DNA from: Clytia hemisphaerica
Lineage: Eukaryota > Cnidaria > Hydrozoa > Leptothecata > Clytiidae
Length of the DNA stretch: 64,000 bases
Assembly (NCBI GenBank): GCA_902728285.1
Contig: CACVBU010000513.1
Span: 41,702-105,701 of the forward strand
Reading direction: 5' to 3'
Made by a program: the position numbers and the translations under genes. Positions 5,078-60,800 of this stretch are shown here, piece after piece (positions within the stretch are counted from its first letter, which is position 1; each line of letters opens with the position of its first letter). The notes beneath the pieces were generated by a model that searched no databases, had not been told where the DNA came from, and was given only the letters and a program-made list of their open reading frames with translations.

Positions 5078-6065
5078 CCTTGCTAATGCCTTGCAATTCT
5101 TTGGGGTTACCTATTCATTAAGGGTACCTAGCTGTCTTGATGGAAGCTCTGGGGGCTGGTTATATTTTCCAAATTTTCCAATATTTCAAAATATTTCAAA
5201 TTATTTAATTTTTTTAACCCAGCACCTAGTTTCCCATCCAATTTTTCTTTCGTTTCCCATCACGCCATCTTTTGCTATATTTTTCTAATGTGGTTGTTTT
5301 GATTTACAGCCGCCATCTTTATAGCATAACAACAAAGTTTTATTAGCAGGCGTTCATGTGTGAGCGCTTCCCACGCTATAATAGAGAAGCTAAAACGTCA
5401 GGACATAAGAGTAAACAAACATGGTAGCTAGTTTTGTTTTTGGTTCTGTTTCACACCCATAACATAACTGATAACAATCTTCTGTAGACGTTTTGAAATC
5501 TTTACTGGTACTAATATTTATTCCTTGCTGCATTCCTGTATATTATATAATAACACTATAGTCTTGTTTCTTTTTCATCATTAGAAAGATTTAAAAATCA
5601 TTAAGATTTTAGGAATGACAAAAGAGCAAAAAGGGTCAATTAAAAAATTATCGGCTGAATAGGGGTACATAACTCAAAGCAATTTCTCAAGGGGACCTAA
5701 CTCGTTGGGGGCACCATGCTTCAATGGGGGCACCTGAAAAGTGGGCTGAAACCATGAAATAGAAAGATTTATAAGGAGAAATTTCATATTCAAAATTCGC
5801 AGAAAAGGCGATTTTCGGTATATTTTTGACATTCGGGGTCGGGAACTCGGACTCGCCAATCATATATTTCCTGAAAAATTGGACTCCGTCACATTTTCGG
5901 CGTAATTTGCATATTCGTGATAAAAATCAGAAAAAGTAATGATAAAATCTCGAAAAAAGAGAACCGATTTTTCGGCATATCTCCAGCATTTTTGACGAAC
6001 GGACGAAATGACAAAAGTTCATTTATAGGACCTCCAGTTAGCTCAAAAAATAGATGAAAGCTCAC
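5078..6065. other. Probable UHRF1 intron, no exon seen
   Basis: This stretch follows the donor of the last UHRF1 exon in the window. I searched the minus strand for the next SRA segment and found nothing that fits, so the next exon is probably off the left edge. Confidence 0.5.
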
Positions 6066-9000
6066 CGTATCATCTTCATAGCCACCTGCCAAAACAATGG
6101 AATAAGCACCTTCTGAATCTCGTCCATGCATTCCACTAACGTGCGGTCGATGGACACCTGCCTCGCTTGCCTAATGGATAAATCGATCCAAATTTCCTAG
6201 AATTCCTTCTGAAGGCTCTTGAAGACAACTAAACTCGCATATGATAACTATGATGAAAAATGCTTTCAAAATTTGACTTCCTATATTTCAGATATATTAG
6301 ATTTTTCTTAACTGAATTGCAATTTTACGAGGCGACAAGATCTGTAATTGTGAGCAGAAATCGTAAGCAATTAAATAACACCACCCGAAATCACCTGTAC
6401 ACGATATTTCCAACGAGAGCCGACAGGAACGCCAGGTATAGGTCCAAAGTGATTAGGGGGGACAATAGTACAGACTTTGGTTCGGCCGACACATGCCATC
6501 CCTTTGCCCCAATCTCTATTACTCTTTGAATTAGCTGAAGCCATTTTTGCCTTCTTTGAGCTTTCCTTGAGCTTTTGACCGGCTTTGATGACAGCTGAGC
6601 CGTCGTTTTTACACTTTGGACAATACCAGTCATCTTCTTCGGGAAGACTAGTTAGAGGGGGGTTGAGACATTTCATATGGTATGGCAGGTCGCATTCATC
6701 ACACATCAATTGACGCTCGGGCTCGTCTTTTTCTCCACACTAGTAAGAAATACAAAATCAGGTTTGAGTTGGAAGCACTTTGAAGGTAAGATAACTACCT
6801 TATCGGCCCTTTCTTACGCCGGCCCTAATTTAACGCCGGCCCCTTTTGAGAATGTTTTGCGAACATAGTCTAGAGCATAACGGACAGAGAGACGATCAAG
6901 AAGCTGATATGATTCAAACCAGTATGATTCTAATCAGATGTCAGTTATAACACACAGCATTAGCACTATAGGAAGACTATCTATACTAAAACATTTATGA
7001 GGAAAAAAAACAACAAAAAACCCAGTTTTTGGGGCAAGTTATTTTTGGACCCAAATATCTCCCAAGACTTTTTTTAGAAAATGGGGTTCCGTCATTTTCT
7101 GGGCATTGCTATTTTGCATCATTCTGCAAAGAAAAATAAAAAAAAACTTATGTGCAAATTCCGAGATAAGCTGGTAACAGACGAACAGACAGACGAACAG
7201 ACAGACGAACTGACAAACATTGGTTAATTTATAGGACCTCCCGGGAAAGGCCCAAAAAAGTAAAAAAAAAAGGACTAACCACATGACATCCGCATTGTTT
7301 GCAATTTTTTGTTGGCTCGTCTTTACAGTAATCACAATCTGGCTTCACCTTCCCTAAAAAATAAAGATTCCCCTCCCTTCTTAATCCCTTTGGTGTCAAC
7401 AGAATCTAAAATTGGGCGAAACAAGTAATTTGAATAGTATAGGGGGTAGGAATTATGCTTACTTTTTTCTGGAGCAACCTGATTAACATCTTGCTCTCCT
7501 AAAAGTAAAAACCAAATTGATTGTTACTGCTATTCTTTCTCAAGAATAACACAAAGTTTCGAAAATAATTTCCGTAAGTTTATACCTGTTTTTTCAATTT
7601 GAAATATTTCATCCGTGAAGATGATTTTGCATTCTTCAGCAACTGCTTTGCTAGAAATATCATAAAGAAAATCCAAATTAGGTTATTCCGGGTAGGCAGC
7701 GAGAAAATTTTAGGAAATTGGCCTAAATCCTAAATGATAAGTCAATAAATTGATGAATTAGATCCACATTAATATGTATTTCCACAGCGGAATAGGTAGG
7801 CATAATCTAAATTGTGCCATTGATATAAATAGATTCCACAAGTTTCATTCATTAGCTATAAATTTGTTTGGTGAGCTGTCAGTTAGATTGAAATAAACAA
7901 CTCGTTGCCACCCGTATTCAAAGAAATAACGAGGACATGACTCACTATCTTATTCCCGAAAAGTATTACTTAAGAGTTAAAATAACTCACATTAACACAA
8001 AGCAAAAGCTACCGGGATCATTCTACAAAAATGTGGCATCAATGGTTCGAAGGGTAGTTTGCAGTGGTCAAAATCAAAGGCATCAAGTTCAAAGGGTAAA
8101 AACAATTAAATATTGTAAAACTTAAGTCTTTTTTATCAAATATATGACTATATAATTTTAGGTACCGGGTGTCTCTGAAAAAACTTCCCCCTGTTTGATT
8201 CAAAATTGCGAAAAAGTGAAAAAATATATTAGCTTGATTTTTTCGAAATCGTTTAGAGGAGGGTTTAACTTAAATTTTGGTATATCAAACTTTAAAATTG
8301 CTTCATTAGATCAAAAGTTATGGCAAAAAGAGTAAAAAAGTTTTTTTCAAAAAGAGCGAAAAAAGACGAAAAAACAGGGTATCAAATCTTTTGTTAAGAA
8401 AAAAAACTCAAATAATCTTTTATTCATTTGGAAATGTATTTCCGTTAACTGTAATACATTTATTTACACGATCAATCATACCAGCAAAAGCAGACCTTAT
8501 CATTTGAGGGTCAAGATTGTTTGCAGTAAGACGAGGCATGTTTTTCTTCAGCTTACTCAAATTTTCTCTTCTCCACTCAAATAGAGTCGCTAAGCTTTGG
8601 AAACTTTTGGAAACATTTTGATAAAAGTTTGTTGCTTGTTGAAACTTCATGCTCATTAATGAATCCCAAAGGAGCTCTAAATTGGCAATAAAAATCATTA
8701 AAAACGAATAATGAAACAAAAAAGATGCACAGAAGCTCAAAAGTAAAACTTTACTGCCAATAAAGTACAGTGTTTTCTTGTATAATTTGATACCCTGTTT
8801 TTTCGTCTTTTTTTGCTCTTTTTGAAAGAAAATTTTTTACTCTTTTTGTCATAACTTTTGATCTAATGAAGCAATTCTAAAGTTTAATATACCCAAATTT
8901 AAGTTGAACCCTCCTCTAAACGATTTCGAAAAAATCAAGCTAATGTGTTTTTTCACTTTTTCGCAATTTTGAATCAAAAAGGGGGAAGTTTTTTCAGAGA

Positions 9001-12000
9001 CACCCGGTATGATGGTCTTAAAAAAGAAATAGTTAAATAGTTATTGGCAAGCAAACGACAGCCCATAGTTAGTTAAACTTATCAGAGCAGAGAGACTGCA
9101 GACTCACCCTAGAAGAAGTCTACCATAAAGTTCGTTGTTTCGCCGTTTGTTAGTTGGCTAAATATAAAAAAAGAAGTTTCTAAACAAAACCATAATTGTT
9201 TTTCTAAAATAGAAAATCTAATAAAACCAAATAATGACCCCTATGTCGCAAGATTCTCACAGCCCCTTCGAAACTGGTATCTTACTTCCAAATATTAAGT
9301 GCAGATTTTCAGATATATAATTGTTGTTTTAATACAAAATCTATGTGATTGCCTACCTTTCTTGTGACCTCTATATCATACCAAAAGCCTCTTTCTTTAG
9401 GTTCATCGCAATTATAATTGACCATAACGATTTGACCCACCTCAACCTTAAAAAGGATATCAACATAATCATACTCCTCACTGACATATTTTACAAAGAA
9501 TTGCACAACATTTCTTTTACCGTCCTTTTCGATAGAAAATTCGTCCTTAAAAGAATTCGTCGGCAAAAAATATTTGTCGACAAGAAACTTGCCATGAAAT
9601 TGTCCGGCGAATTATTTAGCAATATAACTATGGCTTGAGGGCCATCCAACGCTTTTTCATAGACTGGATAGCGCTGATAAGTGACCTGGTGTAATTTTGG
9701 CAGACTTTATTTTAGCTTTGCTTAAGTATGAGCATGTAGCAAATCCAGACCACTAGATCCAGTCCCTTTTTGGAGAAAACTAAACAGAAAACATTGAGCG
9801 ATCTTTTCTTCAAATTTTATATTTTTAAATGTAAATAGTTTAAAACAAGTGTGGTAGATCAATGCCATAAGAGTTCTCAATTAGTTAACAACCAGAGCCA
9901 TGTATCAATATTTTAAAAAGTTATCTTCCATTAAAATACTAAAAAGTACATCATTCAGAGTTTAGTACTTACGCACTAATCGACGTAAAAAGTTAGAAAA
10001 ACTGTGCAATAAAACAAGGTAATGAAAACAATGATGGTAATAAAAACAATGATGAAAGCATTAAAAAGTATTGAAAATAAAATTCATGATTTGTCCGGGG
10101 GGACCGATTTGAAGTTCTTTAGAATAAATTTGTTGTTATGGCGACATTTGGAAATAAGTTCAGTTCTTTTGTTTACGAGATCGAGCTCTGACGTAACCTC
10201 TGTGAGACAGAGGTTGCATTTTTTCGAGCCGTAGACATACGGGAGGGTATGGTCGCTAATTTCCCAAGAAGAGTTTTGAGAGCTTTCGAATGGTATGCAT
10301 GATACTGTCTGAAAATGAGTTTGAAATTTTCAAAAGATTTTGCCCTTTGGGTTTTGCCTGGGGAAAAAAGAAATTGCCCAAAAAAGGGATGTTCCACCAG
10401 TGGGATTTTAGGGGATTTTTTCCTGAGGCATAAGCATCCTATAGAGAGGGTCTGGAGAAAGTTTCAGCTATATGTTATTTTTTTCCTGTAAATTATGCTA
10501 AACGACCCCACTATATATACATAACTAAAATACCTTGAAATAATCTGCAACATATCTGTAGAACTGACAAAACAATTATCTGGAGCCAAAGTGATCAACG
10601 AATCCAGTGTGGTAAAAATTATACACTCATACAAGTCAAAATTCAAGCATCAAAATTTAGTTTTATGAAGCAAAATTTTGTTGGTGCACACAGAAGATAC
10701 ATCAGAGCACTTAAATTCAATAAATCTATTTTCTAATCGTTTACAACATCTCCACATTAAACAAGAAAGGAGGAAGAAAAAGAAGCAAACTTCCTTCCGC
10801 CTACTTTTTTTTCGAAATCTAAATATATTTTCCAATCCATGATTTGGTGCCTCACAGAAAATTTAACCATTACATAATATTAAATTGTAGACACTAGCCA
10901 GCTAAAAATATCTTTACCCGTATATCGGCTAAAGGCGGCAAATTTATTGGATGCCAGCACGGGAAAAAATAAAGGCGCCTAAAAGAAAGAGGAGACTCTA
11001 AGCTATCCAGCGAGCTATGAACAAGCTTCTAACTCCTTCTAGATCTGGAGCCTTTAAAGTTTGAACTAGCGATTTTCTTTAAAAAAAATTAGAAAAAAAT
11101 GACTGTGGCACTTAAAGAGTTAATATAGTATTACTACAGGCTGAAAGAGAGTATCCAAATCCTTTTGAAACAGACTTTAAGTAAGTAATCCAAGAAAGAA
11201 ACCTTTTCAATTGGGATCTTTCTTCGTGCTCTTGGTCGAACATCATCTTTACAAAGTTGAACTATTTCATCCTCATCATACCTAACAATGAAGGAGCATA
11301 AAAAACACAAAGTTCTGGAATTCTTTTGCAAATATAAATTATTGCAGAACCATGAAAAAGACGTACTATTCTAGGACGCAAAGTTTAGCTGGAACTTCGA
11401 GCAAAATTTCTGAAGAGTTTGAATGATATTGTTTGTTGATATTTATTTGAATTTATAAAAAAAATTCACGCATTCACGCAGTTTTAAAAAAAAATTCAGT
11501 GCTTGTGCTTTTCCTCTGAGCTTTTATTAATTTATTAATCATTGAGCTGTTAACAAGAGAGTTTAAGGCAATAAAAAGCCTTAATCCCAAACAAGTCAGC
11601 ATAAGGACTCACCCTTCAAATACGACATAAAGAATGACGTGGTTATTTTCATCAGCAGAAATCTTTTTTACAATTCCTTCAAACCATGCACCCATAGTCA
11701 AATCTTTTGCATCTACAAGATCGCCAACCTAAATTGTAATTCAGTATTAGTCTCGTTATAGATACTAATAGAATAATAATAAAACAAGTTAATAAAAGTT
11801 TATCATTGGAATCTCCGTTGTTGACCATGTGGATGGTCTAGGTGATTGTCTGGTCAAGTGGTTGGATGCTAAGACAGATCCTGTTCGATACTGTTACGTG
11901 CTGATGCTGTGAAGGTTGGATCCTGTTACATTTGTGTTGATGTGGATGCTGTGCCCGACAGATCCAGTCGCGATTGTGTTATATAGACTGTTCCTGTTGG

Positions 12001-14585
12001 TCGTGGCTTCATGTTTTCATGATCTTCTGTTTGGTGTTGTTGCCGCATGCTTTGTTATCCATTGGATCGCATAATCATCAAGAACACCTACATCTGGTGA
12101 GTCAACCATATTCAACATTCAGTTAAATTGTAAGTAGATTAATTGGGCTTTCCCAGAAAAAAACCGTACACCCCCTGTTGAGGAGGTCCAACTTTTTGTA
12201 TGAGCTACCCCTGGAATTCCAATTTAAAATATTGTACCCCCCTTGGAGTTCCAAGAAACTTAAGGGTCAAAACCCTCTGAATTCCGAATTTTTGTGGGTT
12301 TTCAAACAATACCTCATGGAATTCCGCTTATTTTTAATGGATTTTTGTAAACCCCTATGGAATTCCGCAACATTTCAAACCTTACCCCCTAGGAACGGAA
12401 ATTGACCTCCTCAACATGGGGTACGTACGGTTTTTTTCTAGGAAAGCCCATTCCACCCTATTTCCACCACTCTTTTAGATAAAAATTTGAATGATTCATG
12501 AATATTATACCTTCCATGCACCGTGCTCTTGTAATCCTTCTTCAGGTTTCGATTTTGGTTCATTGACCTAAGACGGCAAAGTCAGAAACATTTCCATATA
12601 GATACTTTGTACAGAATTTTACAGCATTGTGCAGCATTGTGTACAAAAGGGTCCGAATCTCCCATTTTGATTTCATCTCACATAAATATACATATACATG
12701 TTAAAAAATCTTTCTCAGTAAAAAGGGTTGTAGAAAGGCACCACAGGCAAAAACTTAGCCATTGACGTTGCAACTTAATTTACTAATATACCAAATCTTT
12801 TAAACAAATATGACATATGATAATTTTTTACTATGACATTATTTCTAACCTCCTTATTTTATAAGCAGTATAAAAATTCAGTCTCCCATATAAAGCTTTC
12901 CTTAATAAAAGGTTAGCCTTTGATTGTTCGCACTTTTCTTGTGGAAAATTTATATGCCTGAGTATTTACTGTAAAGGTTCACTGTTTAAAATTTTTAAGT
13001 GATCACCGCTTACACTTTGCAAATTCTGTAATCAAACAAAAATTGTGTGAAAACGTACAGAACATTATTCAAGATCTGATGATCGTCTCTGGCGTGAAAC
13101 AGCCTATAATGTTTTTAATTTTTTGAAGAAAAATAAATTTTGAATTATAGCTCTATCTTGGTATAGAGCACTTTGTCACCGCAAATTACTGATGTTGGTG
13201 AATTGATTGATATATATTATGTCGGGCAAGGGTCATACATACAACATACATACTACGTGAGCACTATGATACTTATTACCTGGTGGTGTGACATAGAAAA
13301 ATGAACTTTCTATCCTTTACTGCTTGAAACTTTGTTTTTGGTACGTACTTTGAAGCCTCCTAATTTCAATCAGATATGCTATTGTTATTAATTATTGTAT
13401 AGAAAGCTATTAGCTGTAGAAGCAGTGAAAAAACAGCATGAAACAATCTTTTTCGACTCAAAAGAGCCATCTTGTAAAGGCTGTAACCCTCGATACAAAA
13501 ACTTTGTACAGGAAAAATAACTACAAAGCTGAAATCACAAGTCTACAAAGTACCACAAAAATTGAGTTTCTAGCACCAAAGTATAAAAAAATTAATTACT
13601 TTCTTTTCCACAAAATTGGATAAGAGTGAGGAAAATCCTTTTCGAAAATCCAGAGAGGAAGCATAGGGCCGGGGGTAGAAAAAGTTGCTTCAAAAAGTAA
13701 GACAGGGGAGAAAAATTATGTGGAAAATTTCTATATCTCTTCTCTTGTAACACAAAATAGTTAACATTCAAGTTGCAACATCGTTAACTTTTTATTCTTT
13801 ACATAAAAAACTTTTTCATTTCATTCTGTGGAAGTTTTTTAATTTTTTCATTGTATTTACAAAGATACTACTACTCACGTTAGAAGTAGCAAAGATTAAT
13901 AAACACTAAAAAAAACTAAAGTGGGGGGATTTTTTTCAATTTTCAAGAGGGGAAACCAACCTTTGAGTTAATTCTTTTACAATATAAATTGCTCTGAATT
14001 ATTTTTTCAATGGTATAAAATGTGTTGGAATTGAATAATTTGTTTAAAAATGGCGAGCAAAATAAAGGTTAGTGCACACTTTAGGGCAAACGGACTTCAA
14101 TAATCTCAATACCTGATTTGTGTCTTTGTTGTTTTTGAGTTCTTCTTTGGTATCTTTATCTTTGCTTTTTTCATCATCAGTGCTGTTATCGCTGATATTT
14201 GTTAAAGTTGAAATTTCTTCGACCTTGTCCAACTCCTTCTCTTCAACATTTGCTGATTCAATTGGGGGCAGGACCATCACTTGGATCAAACAGTTTAGTT
14301 TGACATTGTAATCGAACAAAGTGTGGCCATCTTCAAGCTAAATAAAAAGAAACGACATAAAAAGTATACAAAGTCTAATTTTACTTTTAAGCATTGACAG
14401 TAAGAAAAATTCTGAAAATTCATTCATCTAACCTGCTTCCCATAGAAGAACAGCTTTTGTCGAGAGGGAGGGACATTCAAAGCTTCTTCCAACTGGATTC
14501 TCAAATCTTCTATTTTAGTTAATTTGCTAAGGTTGTCAACTTGGTGGCTGCACTTGCCATCCATCGTTCGAACCCTTATCCACAT
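6066..14585 (-). CDS. UHRF1: UHRF1, E3 ubiquitin-protein ligase (N-terminal 12 coding exons)
   Basis: UHRF1 couples DNA-methylation maintenance to chromatin. SRA binds hemimethylated CpG, the tandem Tudor binds H3K9me, PHD binds the unmodified H3 N-terminus, and the UBL/RING parts ubiquitinate H3 to recruit DNMT1 (family knowledge). Exons by GT..AG and phase, minus strand: 14585-14433, 14337-14113, 12567-12511, 11728-11613, 11281-11203, 9446-9357, 9157-9108, 7650-7586, 7498-7463, 7353-7280, 6739-6395, 6170-6066. All junctions are phase-consistent, giving 465 codons. Residues 1-76 are ubiquitin-like (starts [10 protein letters not shown], then [13 protein letters not shown]). Residues about 145-285 are tandem Tudor ([34 protein letters not shown]). 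Residues about 292-357 are the Cys-rich pre-PHD/PHD ([17 protein letters not shown]). SRA begins near 388 ([13 protein letters not shown]) and reaches [14 protein letters not shown]. The start codon gives the family's usual N-terminus. The end of SRA and the RING are missing because the window ends, not because of a visible break. Confidence 0.95.
7171..7217. repeat. Short tandem repeat (cagacgaacaga)
   Basis: About four imperfect copies of acgaacagacag lie in the UHRF1 intron between exons 10 and 11. Confidence 0.7.
8165..9007. mobile_element. Tc1/mariner-type element with ~225-bp inverted repeats
   Basis: Both ends read ccgggtgtctctgaaaaaac inward and stay nearly identical for about 225 bp. 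TA flanks both sides (8163-8164, 9008-9009), the hallmark of Tc1/mariner insertion. The 843-bp copy lies inside the UHRF1 intron between exons 7 and 8 and retains only a transposase C-terminal scrap, so it is an internal-deletion derivative. Confidence 0.85.
8420..8740 (-). pseudogene. Tc1/mariner transposase C-terminal remnant
   Basis: The minus frame of 106 codons ends with a segment ([15 protein letters not shown], then a short tail before the stop) that resembles the C-terminus of Tc1/mariner-like transposases. The catalytic DDE/D core is absent. Its position between the two long inverted repeats fits a deleted element. The first ~50 residues are hydrophobic and probably not genuine. Confidence 0.5.
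9661..11100. other. Intronic DNA around UHRF1 exons, nothing recognised
   Basis: These are the sequences between UHRF1 exons at 9446 and 11203. A short inverted pair gtaacctctgtgagacagaggttgc lies near 10193-10217. The open frames here (for example 10022-10234 and 10173-10397) have no family likeness. Confidence 0.5.
12144..12450. repeat. MITE with TGGGCTTTCC ends
   Basis: Left tgggctttcccagaaaaaaa and the inverse at the right (ttttttctaggaaagccca) pair for about 45 bp, including gttgaggaggtc. The interior is a run of roughly 45-bp units containing ggaattcc. The ends resemble those of 41212-41476. It lies in the UHRF1 intron between exons 3 and 4; the frame at 12178-12405 is an artefact of it. 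Confidence 0.7.
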
Positions 14586-15476
14586 GGTTATTGATTGAAT
14601 TGACCTTTTTTAGTAAAAACACATATAATATATATATATATATATATGATTATAATGACAATAATGCCTGATCACAAGCCCTGTTTTCAAAACTAAACTT
14701 CTGCAAGCAATCAAATTGTTTTTATAATCCATTTATGGTAATGAATTATCTCTGTAACTGTAATAAATTCACGGATGAAATATTGTTAGGGACCCTGGTA
14801 GACTTTCCATACCAAATATTGAACAGTTTAGTTTAGTAACCATTATAATGTTTGAATATGCTTTGCATATTTTCCTAAAAAATATTACCTGCAAATTTGC
14901 CATCATTTTTTTGCACACAATTCAAGATGGCAAATAGAAAGGTGAAAAAAACCCAACACGCTAACCACTAAGCTACCAAGCTGTAACTGTTTTCGGCAAT
15001 AATTGCCGAAAAGAGCAATAATTGCTGTTTTTATCTTAAACACCCAACTGATAATGAATAACCAGACCTCACAAGTTATGATCGCAAATCCTCCAAATAA
15101 GCCCCACCCATTCATACATTCTTGGAGGGTAAACCACCAACCAGGTGTGGGGGTTACTTGTTTCTTCCAGGTTGGGCAGCTCTGGGGCAGCTCTAACTCT
15201 AGGGGTGCGCCTGCGCGCTCTATATTATTATGGGGATTAACATGAGCTATATTATATTAAAAAAACTCAAAGGGATCTATGCAATTTCCCAAACTGACAT
15301 GGCCAATACGACACATCACAACAGTTAGTCACACTAGGAAATCTAGCTTTCAGAAAAAACAACATCAGTCATCTACAGGATGTATTTGCACAACAAGGAT
15401 GAGAGTTACCTGAATCAAGCCCACAAGACAATCAATTAAAACTTGAAAGTTTGAAACAAGATAAAACGTGCAGCAG
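14586..15476. promoter_or_regulatory. UHRF1 5' flank, no core promoter motif identified
   Basis: DNA immediately upstream of the UHRF1 start codon on the minus strand. It contains an (AT)n microsatellite at about 14626-14648. I could not identify a TATA box or initiator with confidence. No coding exon was recognised. Confidence 0.35.
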
Positions 15477-20805: not shown

Positions 20806-21047
20806 AGCACAGGAAAAAATGATCTTATCCCAAGGTTGGAATTTAGAATTTTCCGATGTGCATTTTTCGGTTGACTTCTCTAGCCCTGGTATTTCGGAAA
20901 TTGGCGAAGCGGCTTGTTTCGGAAAAAGCCAATTCCCATTTGGAATTTCAAGAATTCCAATTTGTTAGTTAAAGATTGACAAAAAGTTCCATTGCGAATA
21001 TTGCCGGTTTCCAAGGTTGGAAAATTCTCAAATTCGGACTTTGGGAA

Positions 21048-21990
21048 ATGCGGGTCGGAAAATCGTGTTTCCCTAATAAATTGGGTTTTAAATGAAAAAC
21101 CTCATCATTAGGAAACATTGTATTTTTCCAAGTCGAGATTAATTTGCTGGGACTTGCGAAAATGGGTCGGAAAATCGTGTTTCCTAACAAATGGGTTTAA
21201 ATGAAAAACGCTCATTCCATTAGGAAAATTGTATTTTTCCAAGTCGAGATTAATTTGATTGGGACTTGCGAAAATGCGGGTCGGAAAATCGTGTTTCCCT
21301 AACAAATTGGGTTTTAAATGAAAATCGCTCATTCCATTAGGAAAATTGTATTTTTCCAAGTCGAGATTAATTTGATTGCGACTTGCGAAAATGCGGGTTG
21401 GAAAATCGTGTTTCCCTAACAAATTGGGTTTTAAATGAAAATCGCTCATTCCATTAGGAAAATTGTATTTTTCCAAGTCGAGATTAATTTGATTAGGACT
21501 TGCGAAAATGCGGGTCGGAAAATCGTGTTTCCCTAACAAATTGGGTTTTAAATGAAAATCGCTCATTCCATTAGGAAAATTGTATTTTTCCAAGTCGAGA
21601 TTAATTTGATTGCGACTTGCGAAAATGCGGGTTGGAAAATCGTGTTTCCCTAACAAATTAGATTTATTTATGAAAAACGCTCATTCCATTAGGAAAGTTG
21701 TATTTTTCCAAGTCGAGATTAATTTGATTAGGACTTGCGAAAATGCGGGTCGGAAAATCGTGTTTCCCTAACAAATTGGGTTTTAAATGAAAATCGCTCA
21801 TTCCATTAGGAAAATTGTATTTATCCAAGTCGAGATTAATTTGATTGCGACTTGCGAAAATGCGGGTTGGAAAATCGTGTTTCCCTAACAAATTAGATTT
21901 ATTTATGAAAAACGCTCATTCCATTAGGGAAGTTGTATTTTTCCAAGTCGAGATTAATTTGATTGGGACTTGCGAAATGCGGGTCGGAAA
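21048..21990. repeat. 117-bp tandem satellite, ~8 copies
   Basis: Units containing gcgggtcggaaaatcgtgtt and cgctcattccattaggaaa repeat with a spacing of 117 bp (for example 21271 to 21388). Because 117 is a multiple of three, the minus strand stays open through several units and produces a 39-residue repeat (21108-21656, 21664-21891). No neighbouring exon or start supports translation. Confidence 0.9.
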
Positions 21991-22372
21991 AATCGTAACA
22001 AACCATTAATGTTAACATGCTTATCAGCTTTAAATTTACAAGTCTTCTTTACAAAAATAGTGTACATTTTGTGATATCAAAATAATTTTTTTTAATAAGA
22101 AAAAGTTAATCTTTGTAGAGATCCATACAAATCTCAATATATTATTATTAGGGATGGTCAAAGAAAGTTCTTCAGAAACTGAAGGAGAATGCTCAGCAAC
22201 CCCAGGCTTTCATCTGTGTCTGTTTCTGTAAATTTCATTATCAATCTCCTGTGAAAGTGTTAATCTAGATTAGAGTTAAAGTCAAGACTGAGACAGAAAA
22301 ATCAACGGTCAGAAATAAGCAAATTCGAATCAGGTAAAATACTACAATAAATAAGTGCTATTTTATCCAATA
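21991..22372. other. 3' flank of the SAM-like gene, nothing recognised
   Basis: AT-rich DNA downstream of the stop at 22373-22375 on the minus strand. It presumably contains the 3' UTR. No clear polyadenylation signal was singled out. Confidence 0.4.
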
Positions 22373-25300
22373 TCAATCGAGCACTTCAAAATCAAAATGA
22401 AAATATGGTCTATGAACATCAATACATAAAAAGTCATTTTCATTTTCTTGATAAATGATAACAGGGCGACTAATCGCGTTTACATTTTTCACAGCCATCG
22501 CATTTGAGCGTTCAAAAATACGAAAATCTTTTTCCATTCTCCCAGTGAAGATAAACTCGTGTACTTTAAGGTATTTGGAAGGGTCGCCATTTGCTTCCTT
22601 CGTCAGGACAAATTCCTCCACCATACCCACGACACAATCGGTAAAAAGGACGAAAGACCCTTTTTTTACATGCAGATCATTCCCGGGGAGGTAACATGAC
22701 CTAAAGCTTTGGTAAACTTCAACATCTAAACCATCGGTTTGGGCTGCAACAATTACGAGGTCATCTGCTACATGTAAATTTTGGTCACCTCCACAACCAA
22801 TGAAGATGACAAGCGATGAAACATCATCTCCTAGCTCAACGCATTGTTTGGCATATATCTTGGCACCCTCAAGACTCGATACAACCTAGACAATGAAAGA
22901 TCATAATCCAATAAACTTTTTTCTGAATTAGTCTTGCTGGTCTTTCTTTATAACGTTTTTTCTAAAGACACTTACTTGACGCCGCATATTTGATTCTATG
23001 AGGCTTTCCAAAGTTAACAATTAAAACACTGTAAAAAGCTTGTTGAAACCTTTTCTTTCCATTATCGAAAATCACGATTTCACGTAGATTTTAAGTAGAG
23101 TTGTCAAAACTTTACCCAAACGAAGAATTAATCTTACCGCATTTCTGTCGTCTTCTTTGTGTCTCCAACGCAGCGGAACTCCTTTCAATGATCGAATCTC
23201 GCGTTCGATTTCATGCTTAGCATATGTAGCCTCAATGTTTTTGAAATTTGTTTGGATTGCAGTGTACCTGTGAAAAAATATTTAAAACTCAATATCAGAG
23301 TCAATAAAAAATTATCGGCAGAACGATGTATCCTTAGGGAAGAACTGAATTCTATGCATGCTTTATAATCAAGGAATTTTCAATATGATAATTGTACTAA
23401 GTGTGCGAATTCATTCGGAACTTTATACAATAATATTTTTGTTTGTTTGAATTAAAAGAACAAAATGAGAAAGTTTTGTATTTCTATTATATCATTATAA
23501 TATCCACAGGAAAAAATCATTGAATCACATGCGTGTGAATACTAAATTCCAGCCATGTGAAAGTATATGTTTCACACGCGAGTTACACGCGTGTGATCCT
23601 GCACAGATTCACATGGATGTGAAAATGTCAATCACATGATGATTTTTCACACGTGTGAAACCAAGTTTCCCACTTGTTAAACCTTAAATTACAAACTTGG
23701 TATTTCTCCTTAAAATCGAGAATCCCACGTGTTAAATCGAAAATCACAGTCAAGAAGCCCCCAACAGGTTCAATTTTCCGGCGTGTTAAATTGAAAATCA
23801 CGGGCAAGTTGCTCAAAACTGGTTCATGTTAATTTGATTTTCCGGCGTGTTAAATCGAAAATCACAGAGGAGGAGCCCCAAAACTGGCTCATGTTCATTT
23901 GGTTTTCCGGCGTGTTAAATCAAAAATCACAGAGGAGGAGGCCAAAACTGGCTCGTGTTAATTCGATTTTCCGGCGTGTTAAATCGAAAATCACGGGTAA
24001 GTTGCTCAAAACTGGTTCATGTTAATTTGATTTTCCGGCGTGTTAAATCGAAAATCACAGAGGAGGAGCCCAAAAACTGGCTCATGTTCATTTGGTTTTC
24101 CGGCGTGTTAAATAAAAAATCACAGAGGAGGAGCCCAAAAGTGGCTCGTGTTAATTTGGTTTTCCGGCGTGTTAAATCGAAAGGCACAAATGACGTGTTA
24201 GATCAAAAGTCGCAACCAAAAAAATTCTAAAATGTCGACCTGCTTGGAAATTTAAGACAGTTTTCTTTTAGGTAAAAAAAGCTCTAGAAGCTTTAACAAT
24301 AAATATTTAAGAGATATCCTACAAAAAAGTATACAGACTATCTAGATAAACACAAAGTGACGTGTGGTAAAAAATCACAAAAAAAAAAATAAATATCAAG
24401 CTAGATTTTCGTTTTTAAAAATCTTTAAAAAATATATACAGTATTTTTATAAATATAAACAAGATCTCGTAAAACAAAATTTACACACTTTTTAGAAAAA
24501 AATAAAACAGTATTTGTAAAATACATGAAATGTAAATAAATAACCATTTTTTCGTTTTTAAAAAACTATTTACCTGTTAGCCTTTTTACAAAGAACAAGA
24601 TTGTATTCAATCTTTACGAATTGGCTTGATTAATATTAAGTAATGAACTTGAAGACTAAATTTTATACAAACTGAAGAAACCTCACAGTAAAAAGGAGAA
24701 TATAATTTATAAATAGCGAAGCGAATTTTGACTGGTTTTCTCGATTTTTGTTGACGGACTCAAGGAAAAACGTTCCAAAGAATGTCGAAGGAAAAATATA
24801 GATATATCATGTTAATTTTTCTCAATGGTATGACCCAAGTCTGGTCGTTTGAACGTGAAGAAACAAAAAAGTTAACATTTAAGCTTAAAATTCGATATTA
24901 TGTGTATTCATTTTGGCAGGATTAAATTTTCGCCAAAATTTTAAAAATTGGCCGTCCGCCAAATTAAATGCCCGCCAAATTTAGGGACAAGCTGGAGTTT
25001 TTACAAGCTCTTATTTGATTTGGTAAGTCGTTAACCTGTAATAAAACAATTTTGTTACTTTTTCTAAAGAACGCGTCATCTCTGTTACTTTTAATGACCA
25101 ATTAGTGAAGTATCTTATAAAAACTCCAGAACATCCCCAAATTTAACAAAATCTTTTTAGGATAGAAATTCTATTGAAAATCAGCATTTTTAAGTTAAAA
25201 CCATTAAAATTTTAGATTTGCTAAAAATTCCCAACCTGCCAAATTAAATACCCGCCAAATTTTACAAAATATACCATCCGCCAAAATTTACCCTTTGGCC

Positions 25301-39729: not shown

Positions 39730-40640
39730 ACATTCCTACACGTGTGACATTGAAAATCTCTAAGTTTGGTTGAACTTAATTTTCATTTTGAAACTGCAAT
39801 TCCCATAGCTAACAAAAACTTGACTTTTTAATTCGTCTGGGCAGTTTTAGAGGTGTGAATAGTAATTTCACACGTTAAACTAAAATTTGAAAACAAGTTT
39901 CACACGCGTGGCTTTTTTTATTCTTCTGGGCAGCATTACAAGTGCGAATTGGAATTTCACACGCTAAACTAAATCTGATCATTTTTACAAAAAATACTGC
40001 GTGTAAAATTAGAAATCCGAGGTTTCGTTAAAAATCTTTTTTTAATCACGGAAAACTGATTTCACACGCGTGACTTTTTTAATTCTTCTGGGCAGCTTTA
40101 TAAATGTGAATTGGAATTTCACACGCTAAACTAAATCTGATCATTTACGAAAATTACTGCGTGTGAAATTAGAAATCCCAGGTTTCGTTAAAATTCTTAT
40201 TTTAATCACGGAAAACTGATTTCACACGCGTGACTTTCTTTATTCTTATGGGCAGCGTTACAGGTGTGAATTGGAATTTCACACGCTCAACTAAATCTGA
40301 GCATTTACGAAAACAGCTGCGTGTGAAATTAGTCATCACAGGTGTAATTTGAAATATTTTTAAATCACGGAAGACGAGTTTCACACGCCTATTTTTTTGA
40401 TTGAAAATTTTTAGTAAAGTTACACATGTGTTTTTAGATATCACATGTCTAAGTTATAAAATAAAATTTCTAATAGACATACTCCAGTCTGTGATATTGG
40501 AAATCCCAAGACAAAAAAAGTAACAGCCCGTCATTCCAGAAAAGTCACATGCCAAACTTTTTTTCTCGAAAATTCCGGCGTGGGAATATGGGTTTTCACA
40601 CGCATGTGATTCGATGGTTTTTTCCTGTGTATACTGGACG
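39730..40640. repeat. 160-bp tandem array with TCACACGCGTG motifs
   Basis: gaaaactgatttcacacgcg recurs at 40051 and 40211, with diverged copies about 160 bp either side. Each unit also holds ggaatttcacacgctaaac and gcgtgtgaaatt, so palindromic cacgcgtg-type motifs alternate regularly. The right edge (cacacgcatgtgattcgatg) is the inverse of the left edge of the 23.5-kb array. Confidence 0.85.
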
Positions 40641-49346: not shown

Positions 49347-50272
49347 ATGGATGACGGTCGAAAGTCTGGAAGTCTAACTAGAATAAAGAAAAAAGGGAGT
49401 AACACACAAATTGAATATGACCTATACCTACCATCAATAGGTCACAAGAAAGTCACGGACCTAAGAGAAGCTTTAAACAAAATACATCTACAAGGAATAG
49501 CACGAAAAAACGTATACATGTGCGTAACATCAAAAGATGTCGAAATACTCAAAAAAGCTGAAACCAGAACCACCAAAAAGTATACTAAAGAAAACCAAAA
49601 AGAAAAAGAAGAAAAACAAAAACAAACCTACAAATGAGAGATTGGAAAACAAAACAACACCATCTGAAAGATTTGAGAAATCATCAAATGTGACCTTCAA
49701 TCCACCTCCAGTCCCAACACCAACAAAAAACGCAAACTCTGATGTTGTTGACTTTACAATGGATGAACCGATGGAAAAAGGACAAATCTTTTTAGCAAGG
49801 CCTTACGAACAGAAATAGAAGAACAACCGAGCCTGAAGAGAGGACGTTCCGAAACCCCACCACCGGAGGAAAGCCAAGTAGGTATGGTAAGTACCGGGTC
49901 GAGTGAGGTCCTAAGTCAACCTCTCTTCCCTGAGTTGTCCTAGGCTGAAGAAAATGATTTAAATAACACATGAGATATTATTGATGAACCAGAAGGAGAG
50001 GATATTGATCCACGTCGAATCATAGAAAATTATATTGAAGTCGTCAAAGAAACACCTCCGTTTCCTCCTCAAGTAGAATCACAAATGATCTCTGATTTTA
50101 CTACAGACGAATCACAACATATATCACAATTTCCTTCACTTCTATCCCCAAAAACATCCACACCAACAAAATCTGAAAACACCACCGATACTCAAATAGT
50201 GTCTTTTCTAAGACCAAAAACCAATCTTAGATTACTCCCCGACCACGAGTATAAAAGACACTACGAAGAGCT
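49347..50272 (+). pseudogene. ORF1-like retroelement frame, 5' part (interrupted by Rep element)
   Basis: The frame starts at ATG 49347 (MDDGRKSGSLTRIKKKGSN), shifts near 49540 into a Lys-rich frame (SILKKTKKKKKKNKNK, then NSDVVDFTMDEPMEKG), and after a broken stretch is open from about 49972 to the insertion at 50272. It is charged and low-complexity with no enzyme motif, so ORF1/gag-like is a guess. The 50274-52680 unit splits it; the frame continues at 52681. Confidence 0.5.
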
Positions 50273-50273
50273 A

Positions 50274-50448
50274 CAATCATCTGCATAATATTGTGAGACT
50301 GACACCTCCCCCCCACTCCCCCAAGTCATTGTTGTTTGAATTCGAGAAGCGTTGATGGTCAAATTTCCTCCAATATCCACAACATTGATTTGGGGAAGCG
50401 GGGGACCCTGAATTAACTGGAAAGTCTCACTATTTTCACAAATGATTG
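50274..50448. repeat. Left palindromic terminal repeat of the Rep element
   Basis: About 95% identical to 52507-52680 by reading (roughly eight differences, mostly in a C-run). The outer arms caatcatctg...ttgtgagact and the inverse of agtctcac...atgattg pair. Inner arms ccccaagtca / tgatttgggg and caatgttg-like segments pair as well. The central loop holds gaattcgagaagcgttgatg. It can fold as a long hairpin. Confidence 0.85.
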
Positions 50449-50983
50449 TCTGAATTTGGAAAAAAAATTTGAAAGGGGTTTCCCTGTATCTTACATCACA
50501 TTTTTGAAAAAAATTGAAGCTCCCAGTTGCTAAGCCCACCAAAACATATCCGACGGCCATGTGCAAGCGTTTGAGTGGTTTCAGAGTATACCAATTAGTT
50601 CGCCATGTGTTTTGGGTTGTTTTGAGTTATAGCAAAGAATAAAATGACGTCAGAAGCGCGGGAAAATACGAAAATTCGCGCCGAATTCGCCACGTGCAGG
50701 GGTCTTGCATGAATTTCTCTCCCATAAAGAAGGTAATTTGACCATGGAATATGGTCCAAGTTTAAAAGAAGACAAATCAGACCATGCCTATTTGCATTCA
50801 TAAAGCAGTTACATCTACTATTTACAGGTATGTACATAAATAAAAAATACTTTCTATCAATATCAAGAAATAAACATATAAACAATAAGAAGCTTAAGTA
50901 AAATTTCTAAACACAAGAATGTTTCCGTTGAACTTTGGCAAACCTTAAAGTCTTGACCTGTGTATTGTTTACTGCCTTTCAGA

Positions 50984-52341
50984 ATGAATGGAAAGGGAAA
51001 GAACACCGGCACCAAAGCACCGCTAAGCTCATTGCAACCCCGGCAGTTGCGCACAACGTACCTGATAATCTACAGCCATGCCGACCTAACCAGATTCCCC
51101 GACCGAGAAGACTTTGCACGACTGGTTGTGGGTCTGTTCAACGAGACGGAGGGTTCAGGACGGGTTGATTATTGGGTCTGTGGCAAGGAGGAACAGCGAA
51201 ACACTTCTGGCTATCAATACCATCTCGCCCTGAAGTTGACAGACAGTATCCGCTTTGATAGTGTCCAAGCCCGCCTGGTCGAGGAAAATGATGTGAAGGT
51301 CAATTTTCGAGATGACTATGACTTGTATGTTTATGCACAACGTCAACGTTATTGCGTCAAAGAGGACGATGATGCTGTCTACAGCCCCAAACACCCCCCA
51401 GTTGAAAGCATGAAGTCACCCCGAACAAAAAAGGCAGTTGCGCAGAGACGGGCGAACGCCAGAGCCAGGAGAGAAGCCAGGGAGCAGGATGTCAACGAGC
51501 AGGCCACAGTTTCAAGTCGGCCTAGAACCAGGTCACAAACCGCAGCTCAGCGTGAGCCACTCCCACACAAGGTGCAACGTGTCGGTAAGTTTGAGGTTTC
51601 CCGTTTCATTGCTGAGAATGGAATTGTCGACGTTGCTCACTTGTGGGTCGCAGGTCGATCACGCATGGAGGCTGGGGAGAATGACCTGGCAAAATTTTTA
51701 ATTGACCGCGAATTGAGACCCAAAGAGATTTCCTCCCTTTTTGAAGGCAAAAAAAAGCTTGACGAGTCTTTCAGTCCTGCTGAACGCCCTCCCCCTCGGA
51801 AAAGAATGAAAGTCCTCAGGGAAGTCTTGCGTGTCAATTGCATTGAGGGGTGTGACGGCCGTTGGTTCACTTGCGCCATTGAGATCTTGGAACACAATAG
51901 GATTACGGTCGGCACGTACGCCAAGTCCATGAGGTTGCTGTTTGAAAAGGGAAGGGGCAAGAGGAGAAACATCATGTTGACTGGGGCTAAAGACTCCGGC
52001 AAAACTTTTCTAATGGACCCAGTCCGAAAAATCTTTAAGACTTTCTTAAAACCGACCGAGGACAAATACACATGGCAAGATGCCGAAGATTGGAAGGCCA
52101 TGTTCTTTAATGATTTCCGCTGGTCTAAAAATATGATACCGTGGAATGATTTGCTTGTACTGTTCGAGGGCCACCCTGTCCGCTTTCCCGTTCCCAAAAA
52201 TCAAAGGGCCAAAGACATTTTGTTCACGCGGGATGTCCCAATATTTGCAACCAGCCAATCTACTGTCAGACTCGGAAAGGGCGGTGGATCTTACAATGAC
52301 GACGTTGAGGAGGACGACAACAACACCCATATTTCCAATCA

Positions 52342-52378
<37 letters not shown>

Positions 52379-52393
52379 AACAAGGCACGCTAA
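50984..52393 (+). CDS. Rep-like protein: HUH-type replication initiator plus SF3-type helicase
   Basis: The protein is 469 aa from the ATG at 50984; the frame is open slightly upstream but without an earlier ATG. The N-terminal ~120 residues resemble a rolling-circle Rep domain: motif I at about 26-36 (YLIIYSHADLT), motif II at 77-84 (YQYHLALK) and motif III with Y113 and K116 (YCVKED). A basic linker with an RRANARARREAR run spans 135-180. The helicase part has Walker A GAKDSGKT (324-331), a Walker B-like FFNDF (364-368) and motif C VPIFATSQ (408-415). Motif II has Gln where the first His is expected. After motif C the helicase tail is replaced by an acidic segment and a poly-Asn run, so the arginine-finger region seems missing. 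Expected role: nicking and unwinding at the terminal hairpins. ssDNA-virus-derived gene or Rep transposon; activity doubtful. Confidence 0.75.
52318..52384 (+). repeat. (AAC)n microsatellite encoding poly-Asn
   Basis: A run of aac trinucleotides closes the Rep frame just before its stop. It suggests replication slippage at the 3' end of the gene and may have replaced the original C-terminus. Confidence 0.85.
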
Positions 52394-52506
52394 TTGCTTT
52401 AAGCAGCCTCATTCTTAAGTGTTCACGGCAAACAAAAAAAATTCTCCCCCAGACACCATGTGAAATTTAGAAATGGAATCCAAGTCTTTTTTCCAAAATG
52501 CTCAGA

Positions 52507-52680
52507 CAATCATCTGCATAATATTGTGAGACTGACACCTCCACCCACTCCCCCAAGTCAATGTTGTTTGAATTCGAGAAGCGTTGATGGTCAAATTTCC
52601 TCCAATATCCAAAACATTGATTTGGGGGAGCGGGGGACCCTGAATTTACTGGAAAATCTCACTATTTTCACAGATGATTG
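52507..52680. repeat. Right palindromic terminal repeat of the Rep element
   Basis: Second copy of the 175-bp palindromic sequence, in the same orientation as 50274-50448. Its outer border is ta (52681-52682) and its inner border ctcaga, not ta. Confidence 0.85.
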
Positions 52681-52894
52681 TAGAAGCAAAAAGAAAAATG
52701 GCGGCTAGAGGTGTAAAGTCCTGTAGAAACTCACTATCTCGAAGGAGACACCAAAACACAGTCGAAGATGCCTCTCAAATCAAAAATACATACAATACAA
52801 ATTGCATGCGTGATGACCGCAAGATATTGCAAGTTTTTACAGAAATTCTTAGTAATCCAGACATATCCAAAGACATTCCCTGTTTCCTGTTGTA
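52681..52894 (+). pseudogene. ORF1-like retroelement frame, 3' part after Rep insertion
   Basis: The reading frame continues from 50272 across the inferred empty site (codons GAG CTA GAA at the join) and runs through EAKRKMAARGVKSC and a basic region to the TAG at about 52893-52895. No domain recognised. Confidence 0.5.
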
Positions 52895-53879: not shown

Positions 53880-54455
53880 TCTTCCGAGAGTTCAGTTCTT
53901 TTCGGCTGTTTTGTTTTTCTCACACCGCTTACCCATTGTTAGCCAATTTTTATTTAAAGTCGTCCTAAAGTCTCATAACACCCCTTTCTCATTGCATTCT
54001 GGATATACTTTCCATTCCAAAGAGTGGTTAGCACTTTCCAAACTCCTTTCCAATCTCGAGTTATCGCATTTTTTTTGTTTTGATGAAGTCATCAGCTGAA
54101 AATGGTTAAAAATTCAGCCAAATTTGAAAGTCCTACTCATGCCTTATAAACCCTCCCATCTCATTCCCCATAAAATTCCCGATAGAATGAGATGTCAACG
54201 ACCTCCCAGCTACTTTCCAATCTCAAGTTATTGCATTTTTTTGTTTTGATGACGTTATCAACTGAAAATGGCTAAAAATGTAGCCAAATTTGAAATTCCT
54301 TTTCAAGCCTCAAAAATCCTCCCATCTTACTCCCCATATAATTCTCGATCTAATGAGGGGTCAACGACCTCTCAACTTTTATTTAAACTCGAGATATCAC
54401 ATTTTGAAGTTTTTCCCGAACCCGTGACGTCATTAGGGGTCCCTTTACCCCTAAT
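53880..54455. repeat. ~165-bp tandem repeat, 2-3 copies
   Basis: ttttgatgaagtcatcagct at about 54078 recurs as ttttgatgacgttatcaact at 54243, with flanking ctcccatct, ccccataa and gtcaacgacctc conserved. A third partial copy runs to about 54440. The opening cttttcggctgttttgtttt also occurs at 44399-44430, so the sequence is dispersed. Confidence 0.7.
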
Positions 54456-57800: not shown

Positions 57801-60800
57801 ACTGTATTTTTTTGAATTTTGTTGTTATAGCGATTATTCAATTTTTCTTAAATAAAGGTAAAAAGTTTCCAAAATAGTAAAATGGTGACCTCTGTGCTCT
57901 GTTACGCCTACTACACTACTTCTCTTCTACTACTCTTCTGTGCTTAAAATTGTAGGAGGGATCATTTTCCATTTTCTCGATTTTTTCAACCCCAAAATCA
58001 CTTTATAATGACCCCCCCCCCATTTTATGACTTTTGTCAAGTGTCAAAAACCTTCATTTTCCTAGGGAAAATCACTAAAATCACACAAAATATCCATTAA
58101 TTTAGATAATTATGACCCCCCCTACAACTAAGCACAGAAGAGTACATTGACTTTGTCGTAATCAGAAAGTTTCCCTGCTGAGTAGCTTGACGGTTTTTCC
58201 CACGCCTTAGTCATCATCATCATCATCATCCTTCGACCGTTAGGTCGGAAATACCGAGTATCTCTCTCTCCACAGCTCACGGTCTGACATAACTGTTTTC
58301 AATTCTTCTAACTCGAGCCCTGTTTCCCGCCTCAAATTGTCGAGGAAAGTTCGCTTCCTTGAGCGTCTAGGACCAGTAGGGCACCACAATAAGATATCTG
58401 AAATGATTTCAGATTTTGCTCTGAAACAATGGCCGGAGAAAGTTAACCTCCTGGAAAAAAGAACAGAAGAGATTCTAGGAAGACCTTGGTAGATTTGGGC
58501 GAGGTTGGGATGATCTCTCCAATCAAGATTTTGAACCCTTTTAAGGAGATTGGTATAACACCCATCAAGACTTTTCTCCATAGATTTTGTCATGGTCCAG
58601 GTTTCAGAACCATAAAGAAGAATGGGCTCCACAAGACACTTGAAAATTTTCAGCTTGAGGTTATTGTCAAGATCACATTGCCAGATTTTGTTGAGCTTGT
58701 TACAAGCTTTCCACGCAAGTGCTTTCCTGGTTTTAAAGTCGCTATCAGAACTGTTGATAAGAGAGCCTAAGTAGTTGAAATCGATTACTTTTTTAATGTC
58801 AACACCTTTCAAAGAAAATAAAGGGAGAAAGTTTTCAGAGGAGCAAAGATATTCTGTTTTTTTCTCGTTACAGTAAAGACCGACCTGACTTGCTGCAGTT
58901 TCTAAAGAATGGAGTAGAATTTCGAGATTTTGAATACTTTCTGCAACAAGTGCGAGGTCATCAGCAAAATCCAGATCAGTCACAAACAAGCCAGGATCAC
59001 GTGTGCCCTGGGGCGTTTTAATTTGAATTCCCTTTTTGTTAAAAGTATCAACAGAAATTCTTAAAACATAATCCAAAACAACTATAAAAAGAAAAGGAGC
59101 AAGAGTGTCTCCTTGAAGAACTCCTGCTTGAATATTAAAAATATCTGTATCCCCATCAGGTGATACAACCTTTGCTTTGGAAGAAGTATACAATGCTTGA
59201 ATAGCATTTATAATTTTCTCAGGGATACCATAGAGACCTAGAATCTGAAACATTTTTTCTCGACTGATCGAGTCGAAGGCCTTTTTGAAATCAACAAAAC
59301 ATATAAAAGCATCTTTATTGAGTTTCCTCATTTCTTCCAGAATTCGTCTGATAGATAAAATTTGAGAGAGTGTGCTCCTGCCCTTCCGGAAACCGTTTTG
59401 GTTTCTCCTAAGGAGGGGGTCAAGAATAGGAACAATACGGTTAAATAAAAGTTTGTTATAAATTTTTGCGGCAATTGGCATCAAGGTGATACCTCTGTAG
59501 TTTGAGGCTAAGGTCAGATCACCTTTTTTGGGAACTGGAATGATACCCCCTGTTAACCATGCAGAAGGTGGCACAAAATCATTAAATGTATGGTTACAAA
59601 ACTCTAGAAGGAGGTCAAGAAAAATAGGGTCTTTCCATAAAACTGTGGGTATATTGTCTAGACCGGAAGATTTATTGATAGAAAAAGATTTTAAAGCTAT
59701 TTTAAGTTCATCTTTAGTAAAAGACTCTGTTGAAATGTGTAAGAGATCAAAAACTTGGTTCAGAGGAAGTTGGTCAGGTCCGAGAAGTGGGGGATTTCCA
59801 AGCAGTGACTTAAAATGAGCAAGCCAATTCTCTTTTCTTTTCTCTGGAGATCCTCCTTTGAGCTGGATCGATGGATGATCCTTGCGCCCTGACAGTTCAT
59901 TGATTGTCTTCCAAGCAGCTGAGTGTTGATTGGAAAAATGAAGATGTGAAATAGAGTCAATTTTACCTTGAATAAAAGATGCTTCAGCTGTTAAATAAGC
60001 TTCATCTAAATATTTTTGGGCGTCAGCAAGGCGTTTTGAGGTTCTTCTGGTTGCGCGAGATAGGTGCCTTGCTTTGACTTTATCGTATTCATTGCGTGCT
60101 GCGATGACAAGATCATTTTCAGACAGATGTGTTCTTTTGCTTTTAACTTTTTTGGGCAAAAGAGAGAGACAGACATGTTCATTTGCGTCTACCAAAGTTT
60201 GGTATTTTTCTTCAATATTGTGATCGGGACGAGAGGTAACCCACCCCTTAAACCCCTTAGTAGGCTCTAGTAGACTTATTTGATAAAAACGTCACTTTAT
60301 TATCTCGTATAACAATGGATAGTCATAGTTTTGATTAGATCGCGTGTCAAAATCTGATAAGAAAAGCATAATCGAATCTTTTTTATTTTCGAACGTCTAT
60401 TGTTCCATTCCTTTTGCTTTTGTATGTCTCCCCTTTTTCCTCTTTTCAATGAAATCGAAAACAGCTTTCGTCTCAGCCAAGAGAAGTGGTTGTAAGAGTA
60501 ATGTTTGTGTTATCGACGTTGTGAAAAATGAAAGAAAAATAAAGTTTTATTTATTCATTCACTTATCCTCGACTTGAAAAATATAAGCAATCTGATTGGC
60601 TAAGAGAGGATACATATTTCACATATTTTATATCTTACACGTAAAATACGAGACCACCTTCAAAAAGAGGTAAGAAAGAAAACAGACTTCATATATAAAC
60701 ATATGGCTTCGTTTTATTCTTTTCTCTCTATAACATTTGATCTTTTTACCATAGTTGTTCGAATTTTCGAATGTTTTGATGTCAGTTTCATTTTCAAATA

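Follow-up and report, generated by a model that had tools for sequence, protein, structure and literature searches.

The locus described here raises the question of how a gene resembling a rolling-circle replication initiator (Rep) with a superfamily 3 (SF3) helicase came to lie between two long palindromic repeats bordered by TA. It belongs to a 64,000-nucleotide stretch of the Clytia hemisphaerica genome (contig CACVBU010000513.1, positions 41,702 to 105,701, forward strand), referred to as the window and numbered from its first letter. The unit including both TA dinucleotides spans 50272-52682. It is interpreted as the remnant of a two-enzyme transposon, in which the palindrome would act as inverted repeat for a transposase and as direct repeat and origin for Rep, with rolling-circle copies inserted at TA. 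We give this reading a probability of roughly 70%.

Anatomy of the window copy

The original prediction, made from the window sequence, had described a Rep/SF3 gene between two direct palindromic terminal repeats, with TA outside both repeats and none at their inner borders. This description was confirmed. The left repeat (50274..50448, + strand, 175 bp, outer tip CAATCATCTG) and the right repeat (52507..52680, + strand, 174 bp) are in direct orientation and 95.4% identical, with 7 substitutions and 1 gap. Each is an imperfect palindrome whose fold is more stable than those of dinucleotide-shuffled versions (z -2.9 for the left and -4.2 for the right repeat; -3.2 and -4.8 in a second test). 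The outer TA dinucleotides (50272..50273 and 52681..52682) were read directly, and TA was also present at other copies; the inner borders read TCTGA and TCAGA, without TA. The left inner flank TCTGAATTTGGAAAA... (50449..50471, +) is the inverse of the right inner flank ...TTTTTTCCAAAATGCTCAGA (52481..52506, +), and inverted-repeat pairs were found. A similar edge form occurs in other families of the element, and the arrangement resembles the parvovirus D sequence.

Between the repeats lies a C-terminally truncated Rep-like open reading frame (ORF) with HUH endonuclease and SF3 helicase regions (50984..52393, +), assigned by alignment and by a model of its relative P0001. Counted from GTG, the frame spans 50960-52393 and encodes 477 amino acids; the ATG at 50984 is the start shared with the closest relative. 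In the HUH motif region (51209..51229, +), the window copy reads GYQYHLA versus GYHYHLA in the closest relative, so that the first His of the motif has been lost to Gln. Further departures are two residues added ahead of the YxxK Tyr and about 50 missing C-terminal residues, in whose place stands a stretch encoded by (CAA)n. The SF3-type Walker A motif, GAKDSGKT, was placed by alignment at 51983..52006 (+). As judged from this alignment, the window Rep is defective.

The (CAA)n run (52339..52383, +) marks the joint of an internal deletion, as seen by comparison with the copies on contigs C353 and C827. By coordinates against fuller copies, about 2.2 kb is gone, from the Rep C-terminus to about 110 bp short of the right repeat. 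The Rep C-terminus, an intergenic palindrome and a transposase gene are thereby missing, and by this comparison the window copy is a dead, internally deleted derivative of a two-gene element of about 4.4 kb. The original prediction overlooked the transposase because the window copy had lost that gene.

An insertion with the same flanks as that of the window was found on C612 and C63 (three places in all), each with different later deletions. Since the flanks are shared, the insertion probably moved with a duplicated host repeat.

Rep relatives and structure

For the window ORF alone, Pfam, PHROGs and PDB sequence searches gave no credible match. Among public proteins, 32 relatives with 31-90% identity to the window Rep were found, and 30 of these were aligned (the shorter P0031 and P0032 were omitted). 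All 30 share the HUH motif, the YxxK tyrosine motif, an SF3-type Walker A, a DFR(W) motif and a C-terminal CxxC, whereas the window copy lacks the first His. In Pfam the relatives matched Parvo_NS1 and PPV_E1_C, with REP_ORF2-G2P below the cut-off and a weak match to Gemini_AL1. An AlphaFold model of the closest relative (P0001) was compared with PDB structures by VIA-align and with viral structures by Foldseek. Its SF3 part has the SF3 helicase fold and resembles AAV (adeno-associated virus) Rep, B19 NS1 and papillomavirus E1; its HUH part resembles geminivirus Rep. In the Foldseek comparison papillomavirus E1 and parvovirus NS1 ranked top, with low TM-scores to the whole model (0.20-0.36). 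The claimed likeness to a rolling-circle Rep with SF3 helicase thus holds through the relatives' Pfam matches and the structure model, the window copy itself being defective.

The full-length element

Fuller copies measured about 4.0-4.4 kb, and several repeat matches were spaced about 4.38 kb apart. Multiple copies of 2-3 kb with palindromic ends and flanking TA had been expected; such copies exist, mostly of about 4 kb. Their order is repeat, about 540 bp, Rep (500 amino acids, +), intergenic region, second ORF (366 amino acids, -) and repeat. The second ORF is a Tc1-type transposase by its matches to DDE_3 (1.8e-12) and HTH_Tnp_Tc3_2 (1.3e-7), and its sole PDB match was Sleeping Beauty SB100X. 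DDE_3 was above the cut-off in three families and HTH_Tnp_Tc3_2 above it in one and below it in two; the D-34-E spacing was present in all three transposases examined. As read from these copies, the full element consists of a palindromic repeat, Rep, a further palindrome, a convergent gene for a Tc1-type DD34E transposase, and the same repeat in direct orientation. Its gene content strongly indicates a composite of two enzymes. The TA edges are accounted for, since the fuller elements encode a Tc1-type DD34E transposase. Of the proposed Rep-driven transposon, the transposon with a Rep therefore stands; Rep is only half of the machinery, the fuller copies also encoding the transposase.

At all six loci examined (stretches L031:1061-1173, L051:3522-3775, L053:3060-3159, and L072, L073 and L074), the further palindrome separates the converging 3' ends of the Rep and transposase genes, with self-matches of 74-92% and fold z-scores from -1.8 (C353) to -24.6 (C254). 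It might serve as an origin for the second strand or as a two-way terminator. For the lineage pair C353 and C924, the proportion of synonymous differences (pS) was saturated (0.82 and 0.93 in two parts of Rep, 0.89 in the transposase) and that of nonsynonymous differences (pN) was 0.26 and 0.17 in the Rep parts and 0.19 in the transposase. By this single comparison, which indicates purifying selection, Rep and transposase are both maintained.

An integrated parvovirus- or CRESS-like virus in place of a transposon had also been considered in the original prediction. It would fit the Rep fold, the weak Parvo_NS1, E1 and Gemini_AL1 matches and the size of the longest source sequence, which was 4.1-4.8 kb for 11 of the 32 public relatives. 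However, no capsid-sized third ORF was found among the listed ORFs of the C353, C254 and C248 units: the C254 and C248 stretches contained no third element ORF of 180 amino acids or more, and in C353 the remaining ORFs of at least 90 amino acids overlap Rep or transposase or are 94 amino acids long. Viral contigs yielded no relative of the window protein, and none with a 30-sequence profile. The dispersed, TA-bounded copies with a DDE transposase also speak against a virus, which we consider very improbable. In prokaryote genome contigs, no relative was found with a 20-sequence profile.

Copies, families and arrays in the genome

Searches of the own genome covered 417 Mb in 951 contigs. The search with the left repeat gave at least 31 matches. 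The search with the window Rep listed 100 matches, from the best 91 of 257 candidates scored, so that its counts are lower bounds; for the transposase, the best 112 of 348 candidates were scored. After merging, at least 83 Rep copies were obtained at at least 57 loci, with identities to the window Rep reaching down to 29-38%. A convergent transposase lay within 3 kb of 59 of the 83 Rep copies, another arrangement was nearby in one, and 23 had none among the listed matches. Three of these 23 were looked at, and a truncated convergent transposase was found in two. In C254 and C248 (one unit read each) the gene order is the same, the convergent transposase is again of the DD34E type, the palindromic repeats measure about 204-206 bp and the edges are TA. 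By these matches, the window element is a member of a dispersed family of such elements and not a single element.

The view that a Rep gene happens by chance to lie next to an abundant palindromic miniature inverted-repeat transposable element could draw on TA-flanked solo repeats (on C693, C94 and C879, and on C342 with the centre deleted). Against it, the repeat search gave its 31 or more matches in 417 Mb, and other families have their own, different palindromes at the same places around Rep and transposase. This explanation is refuted by these families and is hardly credible. Elsewhere too, in further copies and in further families, Rep is enclosed by palindromic repeats, as had been proposed for the window.

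Tandem head-to-tail runs on one strand were present at 15 of the 57 loci and comprised 41 copies, with start-to-start spacings of 3.95-4.45 kb. At the array junctions that were read (C353, C261, C254 and C248), adjacent units share a single repeat. Arrays contained two units on C907, three each on C261, C248, C303 and C854, and four on C254. Pieces taken from the C353 array (about 1.5 kb on each side of each repeat) differed by 0 substitutions and only by indels when compared, and all four repeats were identical; the independent C827 copy showed 5 substitutions against C353 in a piece of 1,679 columns and 6 in one of 1,585. Pairs of C261 units differed by 4-7 substitutions across about 2.3-2.9 kb (main alignments) and by some indels, one unit carrying an insertion.

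At the right end of the C254 array, two repeats in head-to-tail order directly adjoin, without an intervening TA and with about 4 bp missing where they meet (L052:2331-2737). Arrays or evenly spaced rows with transposase matches and no Rep among the listed matches were seen at C881:51346-59125 and C625:1382-7686. On C491 (16,098 bp), Rep and transposase matches extend over 1547-15309, and they likewise occupy much of the short contigs C353 and C625. Because such matches fill these contigs, the assembly may break inside long arrays, or the units may be extrachromosomal.

Outer edges and terminal repeats

Both outer edges were read at ten loci (C360, C827, C261, C254, C248, C854, C907, C303, C597 and C564). 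TA, the target of Tc1/mariner elements, was found at 19 of these 20 edges, as read from occupied sites; the TA background was 6.3% of dinucleotides in the DNA examined. Outside this count were C625 and C491 (internal junctions), C850 (no shared repeat) and C353 (no readable outer edge), and C612 and C63, which share the window flanks, were counted as the same insertion. Single outer edges read besides, on the left of C232 and C924 and on the right of C312, C432 and C753 and of two at C926, were all TA and were not included. TA bounded both outer ends in five of six arrays (C261, C254, C248, C907 and C303) and one end only in C854. Solo repeats with TA on both sides were found on C693, C94, C342 and, for one of two, C879. 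The inference that the window unit is one inserted element with a TA target is supported by the same edges at other copies.

Inner edges mostly read GA/CAATC or GATTG/TC (the slash marks the edge), with small departures in C612, C63 and C312. The end repeats are palindromic, 165-206 bp long, and 11 of 11 from ten loci gave more stable folds than shuffled sequences (z -3.2 to -11.6). Visual comparison across the families read shows CAATC tips (CAATA in some) and a C-rich arm facing a G-rich arm. Most families have an inner arm like CAATGTTGA/TCAACATTG near the loop; C907 and C303 have ACAAAGCTG/CAGCTTTGT instead. The C924 repeat is 71% like the window repeat. Compared as direct copies, left and right repeats differed by 0, 0, 0, 1, 1, 1, 1, 1 and 2 substitutions at nine of these ten loci (7 in the old window copy); a 7-bp gap occurred in C854 and a 1-bp gap in each of two others. 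Long BLAST matches of a repeat to the reverse complement of its partner had 71-76% identity.

Parvovirus-like rolling-hairpin replication of a linear form, with the palindromes as telomeres and subsequent insertion by the transposase, was also weighed. AAV ends are palindromic with an inverted inner flank, as are the window element's, and the SF3 domain is closest to AAV Rep and B19 NS1. However, hairpin transfer should yield flip and flop ends. It is disfavoured because the end repeats were in direct orientation at all 11 loci compared; the HUH domain, moreover, matches Reps of circular viruses. We regard this route as improbable.

Proposed mechanism and its main rival

In the two-enzyme transposon, Rep would nick at the repeat, displace a strand up to the next directly repeated copy and close a circle that contains a single repeat. 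The model for this step is the resolution of geminivirus partial dimers, which proceeds via a circle between two directly repeated origins. The single-repeat circle would be amplified by rolling-circle replication to monomers and concatemers. The transposase would cut at the left edge of one repeat and at the right edge of another, with free choice of both, and zero (a solo repeat), one or several units would be inserted at TA. It may use any pair of repeat edges because the palindrome presents the inverted tip CAATC on either side. Copying of both ends from a single repeat would explain the near-identity of left and right repeats, for which cut-and-paste alone gives no reason.

Several points weigh against this reading. 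One of the 20 outer edges is CA (C854), and the other C879 solo repeat has TA on one side and TG on the other. The 23 Rep copies without a listed transposase, the weak palindrome of the C353 family and the array formed by C261 units with Rep deleted must be counted here as well. For the public relative 4107, Rep is nearest to 4620 but the transposase is nearest to C924 and C353, the pairing being by equal sequence size only. The rolling-circle step is one that we infer from sequence; neither a circle or concatemer nor a nick or transposition event was seen. Unequal exchange and gene conversion between direct repeats could likewise produce the arrays, solo repeats and matching ends, and are the main, live rival to that step.

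This rival forms part of a wider alternative, an ordinary cut-and-paste Tc1/mariner transposon with a captured Rep as cargo or regulator, in which Rep has no replication role and the arrays, solo repeats and matching ends arise by exchange and conversion as in long terminal repeats (LTRs). The TA edges and the DD34E transposase would suffice for movement, the Rep-deleted C261 units also form an array, and the array geometry is identical under both models. Against a captured Rep stand the purifying selection on Rep between C353 and C924, the intact HUH and YxxK motifs of the 30 aligned relatives, and, in at least 59 of 83 copies, a transposase next to Rep. In our judgement, 15 array loci out of 57 also looks a high number for crossing-over between repeats of 175-205 bp. 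We consider this alternative unlikely, yet it is the most serious of those weighed.

For pairing of Rep and transposase among public sequences, four source-sequence sizes of 3-6 kb were shared between the Rep and transposase matches (26 and 46), with one more at 1,575; in the control, 90 of 20,000 jittered runs reached four. The public transposase list comprised the best 120 of 1,044. A Mantel test on eight Rep/transposase pairs, four of them matched by size alone, gave r 0.72 (13 of 40,320 permutations). Both results are suggestive only.

Comparison with known elements

Elements of Tc1/mariner (DD34E Tc1 group, including Sleeping Beauty) are alike in the DDE_3 transposase with Tc3-type helix-turn-helix, the D-34-E spacing, the TA target and the short inverted tips. 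In Tc1/mariner the transposase is typically the only gene; the present element differs in its second gene (the Rep helicase), with Rep and a convergent transposase in those 59 of 83 copies, in tips placed inside long, directly repeated palindromes, and in frequent head-to-tail arrays. It is also two to three times larger than usual Tc1/mariner elements. Helitrons, likewise eukaryotic transposons with an HUH rolling-circle enzyme and a helicase, have a superfamily 1 helicase and are not known to have terminal inverted repeats (TIRs), target duplication or DDE transposase, whereas inverted tips and TA edges are present here. Parvoviruses such as AAV share the HUH and SF3 initiator, the palindromic ends with inverted inner flank and the head-to-tail concatemers of their life cycle. 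The present element differs in the absence of a capsid gene from the units listed (C353, C254 and C248), in the fixed direct orientation of its ends, without flip and flop, and in TA-targeted, DDE-type insertion.

Replitrons (Craig 2023), as described in PMC10741241, are transposons of eukaryotes that encode an HUH endonuclease; their ends are direct repeats of 5-11 bp, and they have no TIR. The enzyme and the direct repeats are shared; the repeats of the present element are 165-206 bp long and palindromic, and the passages on Replitrons mention neither an SF3 helicase nor a DDE transposase (PMC10741241). The nearest precedent seen for a joined Rep and transposase, in the literature compared, is a geminivirus-like Rep/transposase repeat family of Tuber melanosporum, with the Rep ORF interrupted, one transposase ORF interrupted and one truncated (Liu et al. 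2011, PMC3198968). A Rep-like ORF and transposase ORFs thus occur in one repeat family there as well. In contrast, that element has 37-bp TIRs and no obvious target duplication, and the passages of its description mention no TA target and no arrays (PMC3198968). Parvovirus-like repeats are described there for acorn worm, Hydra and planarian (PMC3198968).

The open-access full-text literature searched (titles, abstracts and passages) yielded no account of a Tc1-type element carrying an SF3 Rep; Repbase and subscription papers lie outside this scope. Novelty is provisional because Repbase was outside the search. We are inclined to regard these elements as a distinct class of eukaryotic mobile element with two phases, in which an HUH-SF3 Rep would copy out and amplify a single-repeat circle and a DD34E transposase would insert repeat-to-repeat segments at TA. 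Cut-and-paste transposons are generally held to gain copies mainly via host repair and replication timing. If the reading is true, the present element, equipped with its own replication initiator as well as an integrating transposase, would be a very small transposon able to amplify itself. It would also link single-stranded DNA replicons with DDE transposons and naturally give rise to head-to-tail arrays. The palindrome would reconcile the two enzymes by serving simultaneously as direct repeat, for the origin, and as inverted repeat, for the transposon ends, and one rule would cover solo repeats, single copies and TA-bounded multi-unit arrays. Divergence of a copy's two repeats would date its insertion, as with LTRs. 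The model predicts circles carrying one repeat in long-read data.

Other features of the window region

A second, degraded Rep and transposase pair of another family (48% and 46% identity) lies just right of the window at C360:107763-110062. At 58240-60291 (-), the window contains an ORF like that of a long interspersed nuclear element, with a reverse transcriptase domain (RVT_1, E 7.3e-32). Tandem repeats were found at 21032-21996 (period of about 117 bp), 23769-24182 (about 64), 39898-40402 (about 160) and 54046-54371 (about 166).
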